DNA of 64,000 bases, from positions 6,097,001-6,161,000 of the forward strand of contig NZ_CP034450.1 in assembly GCF_003952505.1 (NCBI RefSeq), given 5' to 3'. This DNA comes from Mesorhizobium sp. M4B.F.Ca.ET.058.02.1.1. Its GTDB lineage: Bacteria; Pseudomonadota; Alphaproteobacteria; Rhizobiales; Rhizobiaceae. This document shows, piece by piece, positions 35,854-41,451 of this stretch (positions are counted from its first letter, which is position 1; every line of letters begins with the position of its first letter). The translations under genes were made by a program, and so were the position numbers. The notes beneath the pieces are model-generated. The model saw only the letters and a program-made list of their open reading frames with translations. It was not told where the DNA came from and did not search any database.

Positions 35854-38741
35854 ATGGCCGGTCAAGGAGAGAAATCCGATTCTATCTTGTATACCGACGA
35901 ATTCGAGACGGTTCTGCGATCAGAGTATGACGCCATCCTCGCTCGCCGCAAGGCGCTTGGCGTGGATGCTTCGAAAGATGCTGGGGTGGCAAGCCCGATT
36001 CCGTTGCCAAGGGTGATCCGGCCTGGCTGTTTGGCGTGGCGCTTTCGGGTGGCGGGATAAGATCGGCTTCGTTCTGCCTCGGCGCGCTTCAGGCACTCGA
36101 CCAGTACAAGCTCATACCGCGGATCGACTATCTGTCGACGGTATCGGGCGGCGGCTACATCGGATCGGCGATGATCGCCGACATGACGCGCCAGGAACTC
36201 GAGCAAGCGAAAAGTCTGGAACTCGATCCAGCGAAGAAAAGCGAGGACGGGCCGCTCGATTTTCCCTTCGCCTCGGGCGACGACGTGCGCGACAACGCGT
36301 TGGTCGGCCACATCCGCGACAACAGCCGTTTCCTGGCGCCGCGCGGCTTCCAGGATATCACGCTGTCGATCGGCATTCTGATGCGCGGCTGGATGGTCAA
36401 TGTCCTGCTGTTGCTGACGCTGATCCTGCCGTTGGCGACATTCGTCATCCTGACCAACCCGACCACCGATCATCTCGGGCACAGCATCGTGCTCGACGTC
36501 GCCAACTGGCTCTTCGGCGACGATTGGGGCAAGGCGGGATGGGCCGCCAGCCTGCGATCGCTGGTGGCCAACCCGTTCGTGCTCTCGCGGTCGATGATGG
36601 TGGTTCTCGCCGTCTGGCTGGTCGTCTGGGGATTGCGACGGTCCTATACCGACAGCTATGCCTTTGCGCGCAAAGGCGAGCGCCTGGAACAGGACAGTAG
36701 ATGGGCCAAGGGCGGTCGCACCCTGCTGCTGGTCACCGCCGGCCTGCTCCTGATTGAAATTCAGCCCAAGATCATTCTGTGGCTGATCGAGGTGACCTCT
36801 CCGAAGGCTGGTCATCGGCAGACGACAATGGAGACGCTCAAGGCGCTGATCACGGCGGCGGCGGCCATCGTCACAGCCACCGCCGCCTTCAGGGGCATTC
36901 TGATTTCCTGGCTGCAGAAGGCCCTGAATTCGCCGGGGATCGGACACCAGCTGCGCGGCTATCTGGCGCGCGCGGCGTTTCTCGCACTCGGTCTCGCCCT
37001 GCCCCTGCTGATCTACGGCTTCTTTCTGTTGATCACGATCTGGGGCATCAAGATCTTTTCGCCGATCACGATCTGGGGCTTCGACGTGTCGTGGCTGTTT
37101 GGCCGCGACAGCGGCTATGCCTACGGTCCAGCCTGGCTGACGGCCGACAATCGCGTCCTGTTCACGATCCTTGTCATATCGATGGCGCTGTTTCTGGCGG
37201 CGCGAACCTTTGTGGTTCGTTATCTCGCGGACGATCTGGCCCCCGGCCGGCTCAGTGGCTTCTTTGGCGCGATGAGGCATGACTATAGCGGATCGGTGGT
37301 CATCAAGGTGCTGCTGCTTATTGCATGCTCAGCCATTTTCGCCGTGGCAGCCAGGATGGCGAAAGGTGTCTGGCAGCATGACGAATCCACCGTACTGCTC
37401 AACTATTTGGCCATCAGCGCCATCGTCACATTTGTGGCCTTCAACTTCACCGAGAACGCCAATGGGTTGCACCGCCTTTACCGCGACCGGCTTCGGCAGG
37501 CATTTCGCCTCGGCGGCAGCGAAGATCAGGCCGACATCGCTCTGGATGCCCTCGGCGCGATGGCGCCCTATCTGTTGATAAACGGCACGTTGAATGTGCG
37601 CCGCGCCAGGGATGCCGGGCAAACGGCCGAGCCTCCGAAGAGGTCCGTTCTCGTCCGCGCGATTCGCTGGGTGGGCGCCAAGGTTGCCGCAGCCATAAGG
37701 TTGAGGGCCTGGTGGGGCGGGCCGGATATCATTCTGCCGGGCCACCATCGGCCAATCGCGCCCCCACCTGCCGTGCAAGTCCACAGCCTTCCCGAGGCCG
37801 ACCCGAGCAAGAGAGGGCGCAACGCCGAATTCTTCCTGTTTTCAAAACATTTCGTCGGCAGCACCTCGACCGGATATGCGTCCTCGACAGCGATGGCCAA
37901 GGCGGAGGGGCAGCTGGACCTCGCGGCGGCGGCGGCGATTTCGGGCGCCGCCATCTCGTCGAGCATGGGTCGCACCAGCCTCGGCCTGCTTGGGCCGACG
38001 CTTGCCCTGCTCAACCTGCGCCTGGGGTTCTGGCTTCCAAACCCGAGCGGGATTGCGCTTGGAAAGCGGCCCTCGCGGCGCAGTTGGGAAGACATCCTGC
38101 GGCTGTATCTGCTCGCGGAGGCGACGGGGCAGCTGAGGTCCGACAGTTCGCGGGTCTACATCACCGATGGCGGCCACATCGACAATATCGGCCTCTACCA
38201 ACTGCTCAAGCGCAGGTGCAAGCTGATCATCGTGGTCGACGCCGAGGCCGATGCCGGCGTGAATTTCGGCGCCTTCACCGACGTCCAACGCTTCGCGCGG
38301 ATCGATCTCGGCGTGCGCATCTCGCTCGACTGGCGACCGGTCAGGGACGCGGCGCTGGCGCGCGACGCCAACCGCACCAAGATAGTCCCGCCGGAATCGG
38401 ATTTGCATCTGCGGCATTTCGCGGTCGGCAAGATCCTCTACGAGAATGATCCGGTCGAAGGCATCCTTGTCTACGTCAAGGCGTCGGTTACCGGCGATGA
38501 GCCCGACTATGTCCTCGATTACGAGCGCCGATACCCGCTTTTCCCGCATGAATCGACCAGCGATCAGTTCTTCTCGGAAGAGCAGATGGAGGCCTATCGC
38601 GCACTTGGATTCCACGCCATGCGGGTAGCGCTTCGCGAACGGCCGCATACGGCTGAGATCAACGCCGAGGACAGCGCGCAGGCAAGTCTGGTTGCCTTGC
38701 TGAAGATGCGTCTGGGCAATCAGGGGCAAGAGATCAGATAG
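35854..38741 (+). CDS. Membrane-bound patatin-like phospholipase, frameshifted near its N-terminus
   Basis: A protein of about 962 residues once one base is restored near 35984. The first 43 codons (MAGQGEKSDSILYTDEFETV onward) are in one frame. After a GGGG run the frame becomes GKPDSVAKGDPAWLFGVALS, leading into the patatin motif GGGIRSASFCLGALQAL (oxyanion hole) and YLSTVSGGGYIGSAM (nucleophile serine). The catalytic Asp is in YITDGGHIDNIGLYQLLKRR, more than 600 residues later. Between them are about eight membrane helices, so the patatin domain is split by a large membrane insert. Expected activity is lipid acyl hydrolysis at the inner membrane. The physiological role is unknown. Confidence 0.8.
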
Positions 38742-38789: not shown

Positions 38790-39740
38790 TCAGTTCGGCC
38801 TTGCCACCGGCGTCACCGCGACCTGGCTGACGCCGGTCCGCCGCACCACGGTGCAAAGCGTCTCGCGGCCGATGCGCTCGGCGTCGAGCATGCGCACGAG
38901 GTCGTCGACGCCGGTGACCGGACGGCCATCTATCGCGGCGATGATGTCGCCTTCCTTCAGCCCGGCCCTTGCTGCCGGGCTGTTCTTCTCGACGCTGCGC
39001 AGGCGCACGGCGGTGCTGCTCGAGACCTGCGACAGAAGGGCGGCGCGGCGCGGCAAATTGGTGGTGTCGGCGGAGACGCCGATAAAGGCGCGTCGCACGC
39101 GGCCGAAGCGGATGATCTCCGAAATGACGAAATTGGCGGTGTTGGAGGCGACGGCGAAGGCAATGCCTTGCGCGCCGTGGATCATGGCGGTGTTGACGCC
39201 GATCACCTCGCCCGCCGACGACACCAGCGGCCCGCCGGAATTGCCGGGGTTGAGCGCCGCGTCGGTCTGGATGACGTCGTCGATCAGTCGCCCGGTCGAG
39301 GCGCGCATCGAGCGGCCGAGCGCGGAGACGACGCCGGCGGTGACCGTCCATTCGAAGCCGAGCGGATTGCCGATGGCGATCGCGATCTGGCCGCGCCTCA
39401 GGCGCTTGGAGTCGCCGAGCGGTGCGACGTCGGCGAAGCTGCCGTCAGCGCGCACCAGCGCTATGTCGGTGTCGGGGTCGCGGCCAAGCACGCGGCCTTC
39501 GCGCGAGGCGCCGTCCGGCATGGTGACGCGCACGGCGCGCGCGTCGCCGACGACATGGAAATTGGTGACGATCAGCCCGTCCGGCGTGATGACGAAGCCG
39601 GAGCCATGGCCGCCCGCGCCGCCGATGCGCTCGATGCGGCAGACGGCAGGGCCGATGCGGTCGACCGCGTCGGCGACGGTCGTCGAATAGGCGTCGAGCA
39701 GCGTGTCGTCGGTTTGGAGTTTGGCGGCGGCGAGGGCCAT
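38790..39740 (-). CDS. HtrA/DegP-like S1C serine protease with PDZ domain
   Basis: A 316-residue trypsin-like protease. The catalytic triad is complete: His62 in IVTNFHVVGD, Asp92 in DTDIALVRAD and Ser168 in ALNPGNSGGPLV. A single PDZ domain follows at about 225-310 (VRLRSVEKNSPAARAGLKEG, DIIAAIDGRPVTGVDDLVRM). No signal peptide or membrane helix is visible, which is unusual for HtrA and suggests a cytoplasmic location or non-classical export. It is divergent from a second, catalytically dead family member, across a gap with a 30-bp dyad. It may regulate, or be regulated by, that neighbour. Confidence 0.9.
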   Translation of the reverse strand: MALAAAKLQTDDTLLDAYSTTVADAVDRIGPAVCRIERIGGAGGHGSGFVITPDGLIVTNFHVVGDARAVRVTMPDGASREGRVLGRDPDTDIALVRADGSFADVAPLGDSKRLRRGQIAIAIGNPLGFEWTVTAGVVSALGRSMRASTGRLIDDVIQTDAALNPGNSGGPLVSSAGEVIGVNTAMIHGAQGIAFAVASNTANFVISEIIRFGRVRRAFIGVSADTTNLPRRAALLSQVSSSTAVRLRSVEKNSPAARAGLKEGDIIAAIDGRPVTGVDDLVRMLDAERIGRETLCTVVRRTGVSQVAVTPVARPN

Positions 39741-39813
39741 GAGCGGGCTCCGTGATATCAGGCTTGATCGTGACTATATGTGCGGAGCGGCTGCGACAGC
39801 CGCGACCTGACCA

Positions 39814-39843
39814 GATGGCCAGTCGTGAGGCCAACTGGCCATC
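39814..39843. promoter_or_regulatory. 30-bp dyad between the htrA-like genes
   Basis: GATGGCCAGT (39814-39823) and ACTGGCCATC (39834-39843) are perfect 10-bp arms around a 10-bp spacer. The dyad sits midway in the 165-bp divergent gap. Such a long perfect dyad is likely a dimer or tetramer binding site, perhaps for the LuxR-type regulator encoded two genes away. Confidence 0.6.
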
Positions 39844-39905
39844 AGGCGAGTACCGGCCAGCGCGCTGTCGAACGATATCTGGGTAACCGCAAACCCAGGA
39901 GAACC

Positions 39906-40781
39906 ATGATGAGCGACTTCAATTTGAGCGCATTTTCCGACGCAATCGCCGATCTCGCGGCAGCGGCCGCGCCGGCGACGGCGAGCCTTGCAACCCATCA
40001 TCATCGGACAGCGAGCGCCTTCCACTGGCGCGACGGCTATTTCGTCACCGCCGAGGAAGTCGTGGAGGCGGGCGAGGAGATCGAGCTGACGCTGACTTCG
40101 GGCGAAACGGTCAAGGCCGAGCTTGTCGGCCGCGATCCCTCGACCGGGGTCGCCCTACTGAAGCCGGCCGACGCGGCAAATGCGCCGTCGCTCGCCAGAG
40201 CGGATGCGGTGCGGCCGGGCCATGTCGCCATCACCGTCGGCAACAGCGACGGCGCGGCGCTTGCCGTGTTCGGCTCGGTCGGCGAGGTCGGTCCGGCCTG
40301 GCGCTCGATGCGCGGCGGCACGATCGACCGGCGCATCAATCTCGCCGTCAATGCCGGCTCTCGCTTCGAGGGTGGTCCCGTGCTCGATGCCAAGGGCGGG
40401 CTGATCGGCATGCTCCTGTTCGGGCCGCGCCGGCGGGCACTGGTCATGCCTTACGAGACGATCGAGCGGGCGGTGGCGACGCTGCGCGAGAAGGGCCACG
40501 TCGCGCGCGGTTATCTCGGCGCCGGCCTGCATCCGGTCCACAACAGCGACACCCACGGCGCGATGGTGATGAGCCTCGACGACAACGGTCCGGCCAAGGC
40601 CGCCGGCCTGCATCTCGGCGACATAATCGTGGCATGGAACGGCGAGGCGGTGCAGGGCCCGCGTGACCTGATCCGCAAGCTCGGGCCGGACAGCGCCGGA
40701 GCGTCGGTGACGCTCGGCGTCGTGCGCGCCGGCGAGGCGCGCGATGTTGCCGTGTCCATCGGCGAAAAGCCGCTGAGCTGA
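39906..40781 (+). CDS. Catalytically dead HtrA-like protein with PDZ domain
   Basis: A 291-residue homologue of HtrA proteases that aligns along its length with the divergent active protease. All three catalytic positions are replaced: His becomes Glu51 (YFVTAEEVVEAG), Asp becomes Gly81 (DPSTGVALLK) and Ser becomes Glu155 (NAGSRFEGGPVL). The PDZ domain is intact (HGAMVMSLDDNGPAKAAGLH, LGDIIVAWNGEAVQGPRDLI). It cannot be a serine protease and is better seen as a peptide-binding sensor or decoy. ATG at 39906 follows CCAGGAGAACC. The LuxR-type regulator gene begins 5 bp after its stop, so the two are one operon. Confidence 0.85.
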   Translation: MMSDFNLSAFSDAIADLAAAAAPATASLATHHHRTASAFHWRDGYFVTAEEVVEAGEEIELTLTSGETVKAELVGRDPSTGVALLKPADAANAPSLARADAVRPGHVAITVGNSDGAALAVFGSVGEVGPAWRSMRGGTIDRRINLAVNAGSRFEGGPVLDAKGGLIGMLLFGPRRRALVMPYETIERAVATLREKGHVARGYLGAGLHPVHNSDTHGAMVMSLDDNGPAKAAGLHLGDIIVAWNGEAVQGPRDLIRKLGPDSAGASVTLGVVRAGEARDVAVSIGEKPLS

Positions 40782-40785
40782 GGGC

Positions 40786-41451
40786 ATGATGGCGGTCGCG
40801 GCGATAGCAAACCACAGGAAGGCGGATCAGGCCGCCGCAGAGCGGCGGCTGACCGTGCTGATCGCGCTCGGCAGCGCCGCGCGGGCCGAGCAACTATCCG
40901 AGGCGCTCGCCGCAACCGGCGATCTGCTGCCGGTCATGGCCGGGAACCGATCAGGACAGGCCGTGGATGTCGCCATCATCGACGAGGATGGCCTGGAGGG
41001 CAGGGCGATCGATGCTGCGCTGCCCAGGGTGCTGCTGTCGCGGCGTCCCGATCATGAACAGCCCGCCGACAGCGTGCTTGCCGTGCTGCCCGCTTCGTCC
41101 GACGAATTGCTGATCGCCGCTGCCGCGCGGCTTGCAGCCGCCGGCTACCGTATTTCGGGCGCGGGCGGGCCGCTGGCCGGTCGGCACGACGACCTCTCCT
41201 TCCATGACAGCGATCCGTTCGACGAGGATCGTGCCGACACAAACCATGCCCGGCCAACGCTTTCGCCTCGCGAGGCGGAAGTGTTGGCGCTCCTTGCCGA
41301 GGGCGCGCCCAACAAGGTGATCGCCCGACGGCTGAACATTTCCGTGCACACGGCGAAGTTCCATGTCGCGGCGATCCTGATCAAGCTCGGTGCCGCCAAC
41401 CGCACCGATGCGATCGCCATCGCCATGCGGCAGGGGCTGGTGCTGGTCTGA
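40786..41451 (+). CDS. LuxR/NarL-type regulator with degenerate receiver-like domain
   Basis: A 221-residue regulator. The C-terminal helix-turn-helix is standard: LSPREAEVLALLAEGAPNKV, IARRLNISVHTAKFHVAAIL. The N-terminal part (LTVLIALGSAARAEQLSEAL, QAVDVAIIDEDG, VLAVLPASSDELLIAA) folds like a receiver by pattern, but the early acidic pair and the conserved Lys are missing. It probably does not work by normal phosphorylation; no sensor kinase is nearby. It is translated 5 bp after the dead HtrA homologue. A signal from that PDZ protein, or the 30-bp dyad upstream, are plausible links. Confidence 0.85.
   Translation: MMAVAAIANHRKADQAAAERRLTVLIALGSAARAEQLSEALAATGDLLPVMAGNRSGQAVDVAIIDEDGLEGRAIDAALPRVLLSRRPDHEQPADSVLAVLPASSDELLIAAAARLAAAGYRISGAGGPLAGRHDDLSFHDSDPFDEDRADTNHARPTLSPREAEVLALLAEGAPNKVIARRLNISVHTAKFHVAAILIKLGAANRTDAIAIAMRQGLVLV

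Follow-up and report, generated by a model that had tools for sequence, protein, structure and literature searches.

A compact gene unit, in which a catalytically incomplete HtrA-type protein precedes a LuxR/NarL-type regulator and is usually accompanied by an active HtrA-type protease, was recognised in a 64,000-nucleotide stretch of Mesorhizobium sp. M4B.F.Ca.ET.058.02.1.1 (contig NZ_CP034450.1, positions 6,097,001 to 6,161,000; this whole stretch is called the window, and positions are counted from its first letter). The pseudo-HtrA is designated H1, the active protease H3, and H2 stands for a second intact HtrA met in cyanobacterial loci. Gene conservation, loss of the catalytic triad and the operator with its distribution were obtained by computation, and both cassette and operator are well supported. 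We propose further, with a probability of roughly one half, that this is a widespread, compact, autoregulated and presumably cytoplasmic HtrA/LuxR unit with H1 as its PDZ-bearing sensor, the sensing step being conjectural. The three genes in the window are the following.

38790..39740, minus strand: H3, active HtrA-type S1C protease with PDZ domain (protein P0001; Pfam Trypsin_2 8.8e-35 and PDZ_6; triad H62/D92/S168)
39906..40781, plus strand: H1, pseudo-HtrA with PDZ domain (protein P0002; Pfam Trypsin_2 6.2e-15)
40786..41451, plus strand: LuxR/NarL-type regulator with a degenerate receiver (protein P0003; Pfam GerE 1.1e-17)

The preliminary description of this DNA had reported an intact HtrA gene divergent from a pseudo-HtrA gene with a LuxR-type gene close behind, and its coordinates and features proved right. 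The ATG of the regulator lies 4 nt past the stop codon of H1; an alternative ATG at 40789 agrees better with the start used by most relatives.

The association of these genes was followed in a scan of genomes by the H1 alignment alone, from which the best 80 of 581 confirmed loci were kept. In 78 of the 80 a LuxR gene of the same orientation followed H1 closely, 66 times directly and 12 times with a second HtrA gene in between (L170, with an overlapping HtrA frame, is counted among these 12); no regulator was found in the stretch at L132, where the contig ends 219 nt downstream, and at L200. H3 adjoined H1 at 31 loci divergently (Mesorhizobium) and at 10 downstream on the same strand, the latter in Variovorax, Microvirga, Rhodopila, Telmatospirillum, Rubellimicrobium, a Rhizobiales metagenome-assembled genome (MAG) and Candidatus Acetothermia. 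The co-occurrence is tightest between H1 and the regulator, 78/80 against 41/80 for an adjacent H3. An H3 orthologue (50-60% identity, best E-value 7.2e-77 or lower) was present elsewhere in 14 of the 14 genomes that had H1 and the regulator without an adjacent H3, or in 14 of 16 if the genomes G496 and G551 are included.

Cassettes were detected in Alpha- and Betaproteobacteria, Cyanobacteria, Acidobacteriota and Candidatus Acetothermia, among others in Bradyrhizobium, Microvirga, Methylobacterium, Rubellimicrobium, Acetobacteraceae, Telmatospirillum, Variovorax, Paraburkholderia, Nostoc and other cyanobacteria, a Terriglobia MAG and a Candidatus Acetothermia MAG. The gene order is variable: an intact H2 lies between H1 and the regulator in 10 of 14 cyanobacterial loci. 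Three HtrA-type genes surround the LuxR gene in L202 (the Candidatus Acetothermia MAG) and in L211 (alphaproteobacterial). Strong H1 orthologues occurred in 33 of 37 same-genus genomes, and all 30 fetched same-genus loci showed a divergent, strongly matching H3 together with the LuxR gene (the own genome is included in both counts). H1 homologues with organism names in the database listing were almost all from Mesorhizobium. Of the 151 genomes of a family sample 9 had H1, 11 had H3 and 13 had the regulator; 7 had both HtrA genes, the regulator accompanied H1 in all 9, H3 was without H1 in 4 and H1 without H3 in 2. According to the RefSeq gene calls the same H1/regulator pair is carried by 2 of 72,556 plasmids, the only ones at E <= 1e-25. 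H1 was present in 17 of 398 genomes of the phylum sample (E <= 1e-60, two genera), in 4 of 385 of the class sample (1e-34) and in 23 of 397 of the order sample (1e-36). In these three samples, all of which include the own genome, the cassette is a minority trait; since only the 5 or 6 best candidates were scored per genome, they may understate the spread. The preliminary description had suggested a test of co-conservation across Hyphomicrobiales and had named genes that are not co-conserved and a freely varying dyad as observations that would speak against it. The unit turned out to be conserved far beyond this group, with the regulator beside H1 at the above frequency, and that outcome was not seen, though the exact dyad does vary.

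This dyad, perfect and of 10-10-10 bp, had been noticed between the divergent genes. It is indeed present at 39814-39843 as a single copy in the 6.46-Mb own genome, but its perfect form is kept in none of 31 relatives, where the arms agree at 8 of 10 positions in 23, at 7 in seven and at 4 in one. As a functional unit it was consequently rejected, and its perfection is an accident of the own genome. Comparison of the intergenic regions led us to re-read it as the inner halves of two boxes: what is conserved instead is a pair of 16-bp boxes, CTNNCC-N4-GGNNAG, and in the intergenic alignment the commonest base reached a mean frequency of 0.99 inside the boxes, against 0.73 in the DNA that separates them and 0.80 in the rest. 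The elements of the intergenic region are listed here.

39807..39822, H3 side: putative operator box 1, CTGACC-AGAT-GGCCAG (phylogenetic footprint)
39835..39850, H1 side: putative operator box 2, CTGGCC-ATCA-GGCGAG (phylogenetic footprint)
39814..39843: perfect 10-10-10 dyad GATGGCCAGT-N10-ACTGGCCATC, inner halves of boxes 1 and 2
39874..39879, plus strand: candidate -10 element GATATC of the H1 operon, conserved as GCGATATCTGGG in the intergenic alignment
39775..39780, minus strand: candidate -10 element CATATA of H3, conserved as ACTATATGTGCG in the intergenic alignment

The number of boxes was compared with the arrangement of the genes. Two boxes were found in 31 of 31 loci with a divergent H3 (their starts lie 28 bp apart at 30 loci and 23 bp apart at the remaining one), and one box in 9 of 9 loci with a downstream H3 at an identity of at least 38.5%; the two more distant downstream-H3 loci, L202 and L211, had none of this pattern. 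At the same identity limit the 23 loci without H3 in the stretch had one box in 19 cases, two in one and none in three, while 17 more distant loci of this kind had one box in 5 and none in 12. L142 carries two boxes without a divergent H3. Where there is a single box, the distance from its start to the start codon is 67-74 bp in 26 of 28 cases. Within 150 nt upstream of H1 the exact box occurred in 56 of 82 loci (the best 80 and two more) versus 0.56% of shuffles, the box with up to one mismatch in 66 of 82 versus 7.9%; among loci of 38-50% identity 26 of 33 had the exact form. Many members of the group below 38% identity carry a cyanobacterial variant, CTAGCCATNTTTCYAGG, which with up to one mismatch occurred at 12 cyanobacterial loci and one of Candidatus Acetothermia, together 13 of the 19 distant loci, and in 0 of 760 shuffles, this motif having been picked after the sequences were seen; the shuffles test sequence, not descent. 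H3-only loci served as negative controls and had no box in 4 of 4, apart from one site with two mismatches, and regulator-only loci had an exact upstream box in 2 of 4 and none in the other 2. Upstream of the unlinked H3 genes of the 14 genomes an exact box was found in 5; these belong to the 11 genomes of group f35/g41, which is probably Bradyrhizobium to judge from its likeness to Bradyrhizobium loci; two more of this group had sites with one and two mismatches, four had none, and the other three genomes showed no box site.

The boxes have by their sequence the properties of a LuxR-type operator, namely a dyad of about 16-20 bp and CT-N12-AG, the latter being the typical operator form of the LuxR family. 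If 39874-39879 is the -10 element, the centre of box 2 would lie near -43, a position typical of activators; a promoter scan yielded 0 consensus sigma-70 sites. Recurrence of the boxes across distant loci of the unit supports the view that the intergenic DNA holds regulator-type operators, and it is suggested that the regulator is the protein which would bind them, with activation rather than repression as the likely outcome. The box-2 form RCTNGCCNTCAGGCNAGT has its sole exact match in the own genome at this locus, and a search of ten genomes for one box form gave 7 exact sites, all 7 at the cassette (positions compared by hand). A wide regulon for the own box-2 form was rejected: with up to two mismatches there were 22 matches, the own one included, versus 91 for the reversed control pattern. 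These genome-wide scans covered the own box-2 form and that one form in ten genomes; since there are other box forms, the regulon may be somewhat larger.

Additional structures were seen in the intergenic DNA. At 39879-39901 an inverted pair, CTGGGT / ACCCAG, stands just before and across the H1 ribosome site AGGAG and might form an RNA hairpin over the H1 start. It is kept in most Mesorhizobium with a variable loop (L027 has an insertion inside it), and by eye it is broken or lost in L041, L058, L060 and L061. An imperfect palindromic element of about 50-60 bp (CCCAAAACCG..CTTTTGGG), also found by eye, is inserted in part of Mesorhizobium (intergenic carriers L009, L011, L013, L017, L018, L023, L030 and L033) between the H3 start and its candidate promoter, leaving the boxes untouched.

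H1 has the fold order of the HtrA/DegP (S1C) group, a trypsin-like domain and then PDZ, according to Pfam, AlphaFold2 and Foldseek; the AlphaFold2 model has a mean pLDDT of 93 and its best Foldseek matches are MucD, DegP and Deg1. The triad is missing. It had been stated earlier that Glu, Gly and Glu replace His, Asp and Ser in H1 while the PDZ domain is retained, and both the alignment and the Pfam match (PF13180, also listed as PDZ_2, 6.1e-14) bear this out. At the triad positions of the 82 H1 loci we found E/G/E in 31, E/D/E in 28, E/D/A in 13, H/D/S in 4, E/D/Q in 2, and E/A/E, H/D/A, N/D/E and D/G/G once each. Among the listed H1 profile matches 120 of 120 had neither His nor Ser at these positions; Glu stood at the His position in 100 and at the Ser position in 115. 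The H1 of G496 (L062) has Ser at the Ser position and lacks His and Asp. An unusual stretch is kept at W132, G137 and G138, and so is an RGYLG loop preceding the PDZ domain; W, R and G positions, that loop among them, are invariant in H1. These data support a pseudo-site that is fixed and not drifting.

In a 64-row tree H1 forms a single clade over several phyla (support 98/90). It was built from hand-picked loci, without sequences that contained X or a stop or fell short of 200 aa and without HtrA frames of at least 450 aa. Since the intact members L170, L199, L202 and L193 sit near the base of the clade, catalysis was lost inside a pre-existing module, once or twice: the best tree needs two changes of triad state, and a single dead clade is not rejected by the AU test (p 0.34), from which four long-branch rows were further dropped. 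Two independent deaths of H1 were therefore not accepted as proven.

The regulator has the GerE-type helix-turn-helix (HTH) of NarL/FixJ response regulators, and the NCBIfam matches shown for it cover the HTH end. No receiver was matched in Pfam at E <= 0.1, nor did the Pfam scan reveal an autoinducer-binding domain of LuxR quorum-sensing receptors. Its model combines a receiver-like N-terminus with a NarL-type HTH and resembles NarL-type regulators in Foldseek. Key receiver residues had been described as lacking, and this holds in part: of the acidic pair, Asp, Thr/Ser and Lys expected in a receiver, the acidic pair is absent and so is, by eye in the alignment, the Lys at the end of strand 5, but an Asp is kept at the phosphoacceptor position (D66). 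Among 34 aligned regulators, none has an acidic residue at the first place of the acidic pair and 7 have one at the second. The HTH is nearly invariant among Mesorhizobium regulators and the N-terminus variable; in Bradyrhizobium, Variovorax and others the protein has about 120 aa and contains the beginning of the receiver only. Because the acidic pair is lost and many receivers are cut to this size, a phosphorelay seems unlikely as general mechanism. A crude motif scan of predicted frames found kinase-like frames flanking 3 of 102 loci (L118, L171, L176) and none at the other 99.

Further observations concern single regulator loci. In L118 (6030-7779, an f35/g41 genome) kinase-like and receiver-type frames adjoin the cassette on the opposite strand, and similar frames were not noticed in the viewed stretches L119, L120, L123 and L125 of that group. 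L112 (5152-5685) and L113 (5092-5565) have the regulator without either HtrA gene and without an upstream box; its N-terminus lacks the first receiver strands there and the last helix is kept. The SDR gene beside the L112 regulator resembles the SDR gene at window 41821, therefore L112 may be the same locus. A small gene (MSFFKKLFG / MSFLKRLFG...), which we take to be HlyU-like, stands beside the regulator or H1 in L112 (4787-5071) and L116 (6007-6300).

H3 has all features of the HtrA/DegP (S1C) group, fold, PDZ and intact triad, and scores under the NCBIfam cut-offs for DegP, DegQ and DegS. H/D/S was found in 42 of 42 H3 proteins of the 82 H1 loci, and GNSGG in 45 of 45 further orthologous loci (44 distinct sequences) with the His motif in 44, the 45th being a partial match only. 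The H3 match of L009 is split into two parts that lie in different frames, which suggests a frameshift. The gene adjoining H3 in the window (36036-38741) encodes a large protein with a GTG start codon and the start ALSGGGIRSASF..., which we assume to be patatin-like; by eye no such neighbour was seen in the stretches fetched from other genera. As for location, bacterial HtrA proteins are usually exported by a signal peptide or held by a membrane anchor. The earlier statement that a signal peptide is lacking can be judged from N-terminal hydropathy only: the window proteins have values of 1.47 (H1, first 50 aa) and 0.75, and three exported-type paralogues of the own genome 2.32-2.77 (first 70 aa), but some H1 relatives come close to the latter. 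A cytoplasmic location of H1 and H3 is presumed here.

Several known systems share features with the unit. DegS and AlgW sense envelope stress; they are periplasmic and catalytically active and cut an anti-sigma factor. Likewise the unit has the HtrA fold, a PDZ domain of the kind that reads protein C-termini, and possibly a state passed to transcription, but it lacks an apparent signal peptide and the triad and has a LuxR-type regulator. P0003 resembles NarL/FixJ regulators in its GerE HTH, overall model and symmetric operator, and differs by the missing Pfam receiver match, the lost acidic pair, the pseudo-HtrA partner and the length of about 120 aa in many relatives. Receiver-dead NarL proteins are known, and VpsT, with a degenerate receiver, is one of the Foldseek matches of the regulator model (its PDB title names c-di-GMP as ligand). 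In the feedback pairs HspR-DnaK and HrcA-GroEL the regulator is released or engaged according to how many clients occupy a quality-control protein; other proteins are involved there, and a similar logic is conceivable here. Pseudo-copies of HtrA arose repeatedly, and in MamO/MamE a dead and an active HtrA homologue are paired like H1 and H3 (PMC4794232). That pair works in magnetosome biomineralisation, the relevant parts of that paper mention neither a LuxR-type partner nor an operator, and H1 scored 15.3 bits against the MamO model NF040961 (cut-off 800). Mutated inactive Deg homologues of Nostoc punctiforme and Anabaena variabilis, for which neofunctionalisation was suggested (PMC4877387), are probably the cyanobacterial branch of H1. 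The word LuxR is absent from PMC4877387 (count 0), and its sections on these proteins name no regulator partner, operator or non-cyanobacterial relatives, unlike what is found for the H1 cassette. In the open full-text literature, with subscription papers and preprints outside the search, no description of an HtrA/LuxR cassette, or of the combination of pseudo-HtrA, LuxR regulator and operator, was found.

The following mechanism can be proposed. Its core would be formed by H1 and the LuxR/NarL-type regulator encoded right after it, whose receiver is truncated or degenerate, and H3, whether divergent, downstream or unlinked, would be the usual third member. The regulator would bind CTNNCC-N4-GGNNAG boxes near -43 of the H1 operon and, in the window, before H3, and would in this way control its own operon and the protease. 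Because the receiver is unlikely to act as a classical phosphoswitch, the signal would most likely come via H1, which as the usual neighbour of the regulator and the bearer of a domain of the peptide-binding type is the most plausible input. Its PDZ domain and pseudo-site might bind exposed protein ends or misfolded clients, and such loading would alter its hold on the regulator (titration), with more H1 and H3 as the result; both the H1-regulator contact and the ligand of H1 are presumed here. Only tentatively can it be suggested that H1 is a PDZ-based receptor which directly gates a LuxR regulator with a vestigial receiver in a cytoplasmic quality-control circuit of several phyla.

A number of observations weigh against this mechanism. 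No box within one mismatch was present in the 150 nt upstream of 16 of the 82 H1 loci (13 of the 16 belong to the group below 38% identity), and box counts inside Mesorhizobium are non-independent events. Of the 14 unlinked H3 genes 9 have no exact box, 7 of them showing at best scattered two-mismatch sites. The box result for unlinked H3 is further weakened by shared descent and because in f35/g41 the left half of the box shares bases with a stop codon upstream. No H3 was found at E <= 1e-70 in G496 and G551, both with H1. A dead H1 is no requirement of the module, since four of the 80 H1 proteins retain H/D/S. Hydropathy reaches 2.30 among the 82 H1 proteins, with six at 2.0-2.30, nearly the values of the exported paralogues. 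The phosphoacceptor Asp is present in 20 of the 24 aligned regulators having that column. Finally, 4 of the 13 regulator-bearing family genomes have no H1 (two of them also no box), thus the regulator need not depend on it.

H3 is present in all 14 genomes whose H1 and regulator lack an H3 neighbour, and 7 of the 9 H1 genomes of the family sample have it too. This would also agree with a partnership of the MamO kind, where H1 would activate H3 allosterically, form a hetero-oligomer with it or serve it as substrate adaptor, the LuxR protein setting no more than the dose of both. MamO has a dead site and activates MamE-dependent proteolysis (PMC4794232), and an N-terminal helix region and the domain order are common to H1 and H3. 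The tighter tie of H1 to the regulator than to an adjacent H3, and the two H1 genomes in which H3 was not detected, speak against such a partnership; we regard it as unlikely, though a serious competitor, and it and a sensor function of H1 are not mutually exclusive. The kept Asp, the four family genomes with the regulator but not H1 (two with a box) and the three loci with kinase-like frames would suit a regulator which is itself the sensor, by a small ligand, redox or residual D66 phosphorylation, with H1 and H3 as output genes. The lack of the acidic pair and Lys, the partial receiver of the proteins of about 120 aa, and the 99 loci at which the crude scan found no kinase-like frame make this rather improbable.

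HtrA proteins can act as chaperones, and the Glu conserved at both the His and the Ser position would fit a kept pocket of a cytoplasmic holdase or a site of other hydrolytic chemistry without a signalling role; the constant pairing with one regulator would then be unexplained, and we consider this very improbable. That H1 is a decaying paralogue retained by chance beside the regulator has the loss of the triad in its favour, and against it stand the single supported clade over phyla, the invariant W, R and G positions and the conserved operator; it is scarcely credible.

If the proposed sensing by H1 is true, evolution would have made a signal-transduction domain out of a protease, in place of phosphorylation and with the active paralogue as output. 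Since the members of the unit range from an intact triad through E/D/A and E/D/E to E/G/E, they may represent a natural series from enzyme to signalling part. Work on bacterial HtrA proteins has dealt mainly with the cell envelope; a conserved group that shows no apparent signal peptide and has a regulator and operator of its own would add a cytoplasmic branch, for quality control or peptide sensing, in Mesorhizobium, Bradyrhizobium, Variovorax, Nostoc and others.

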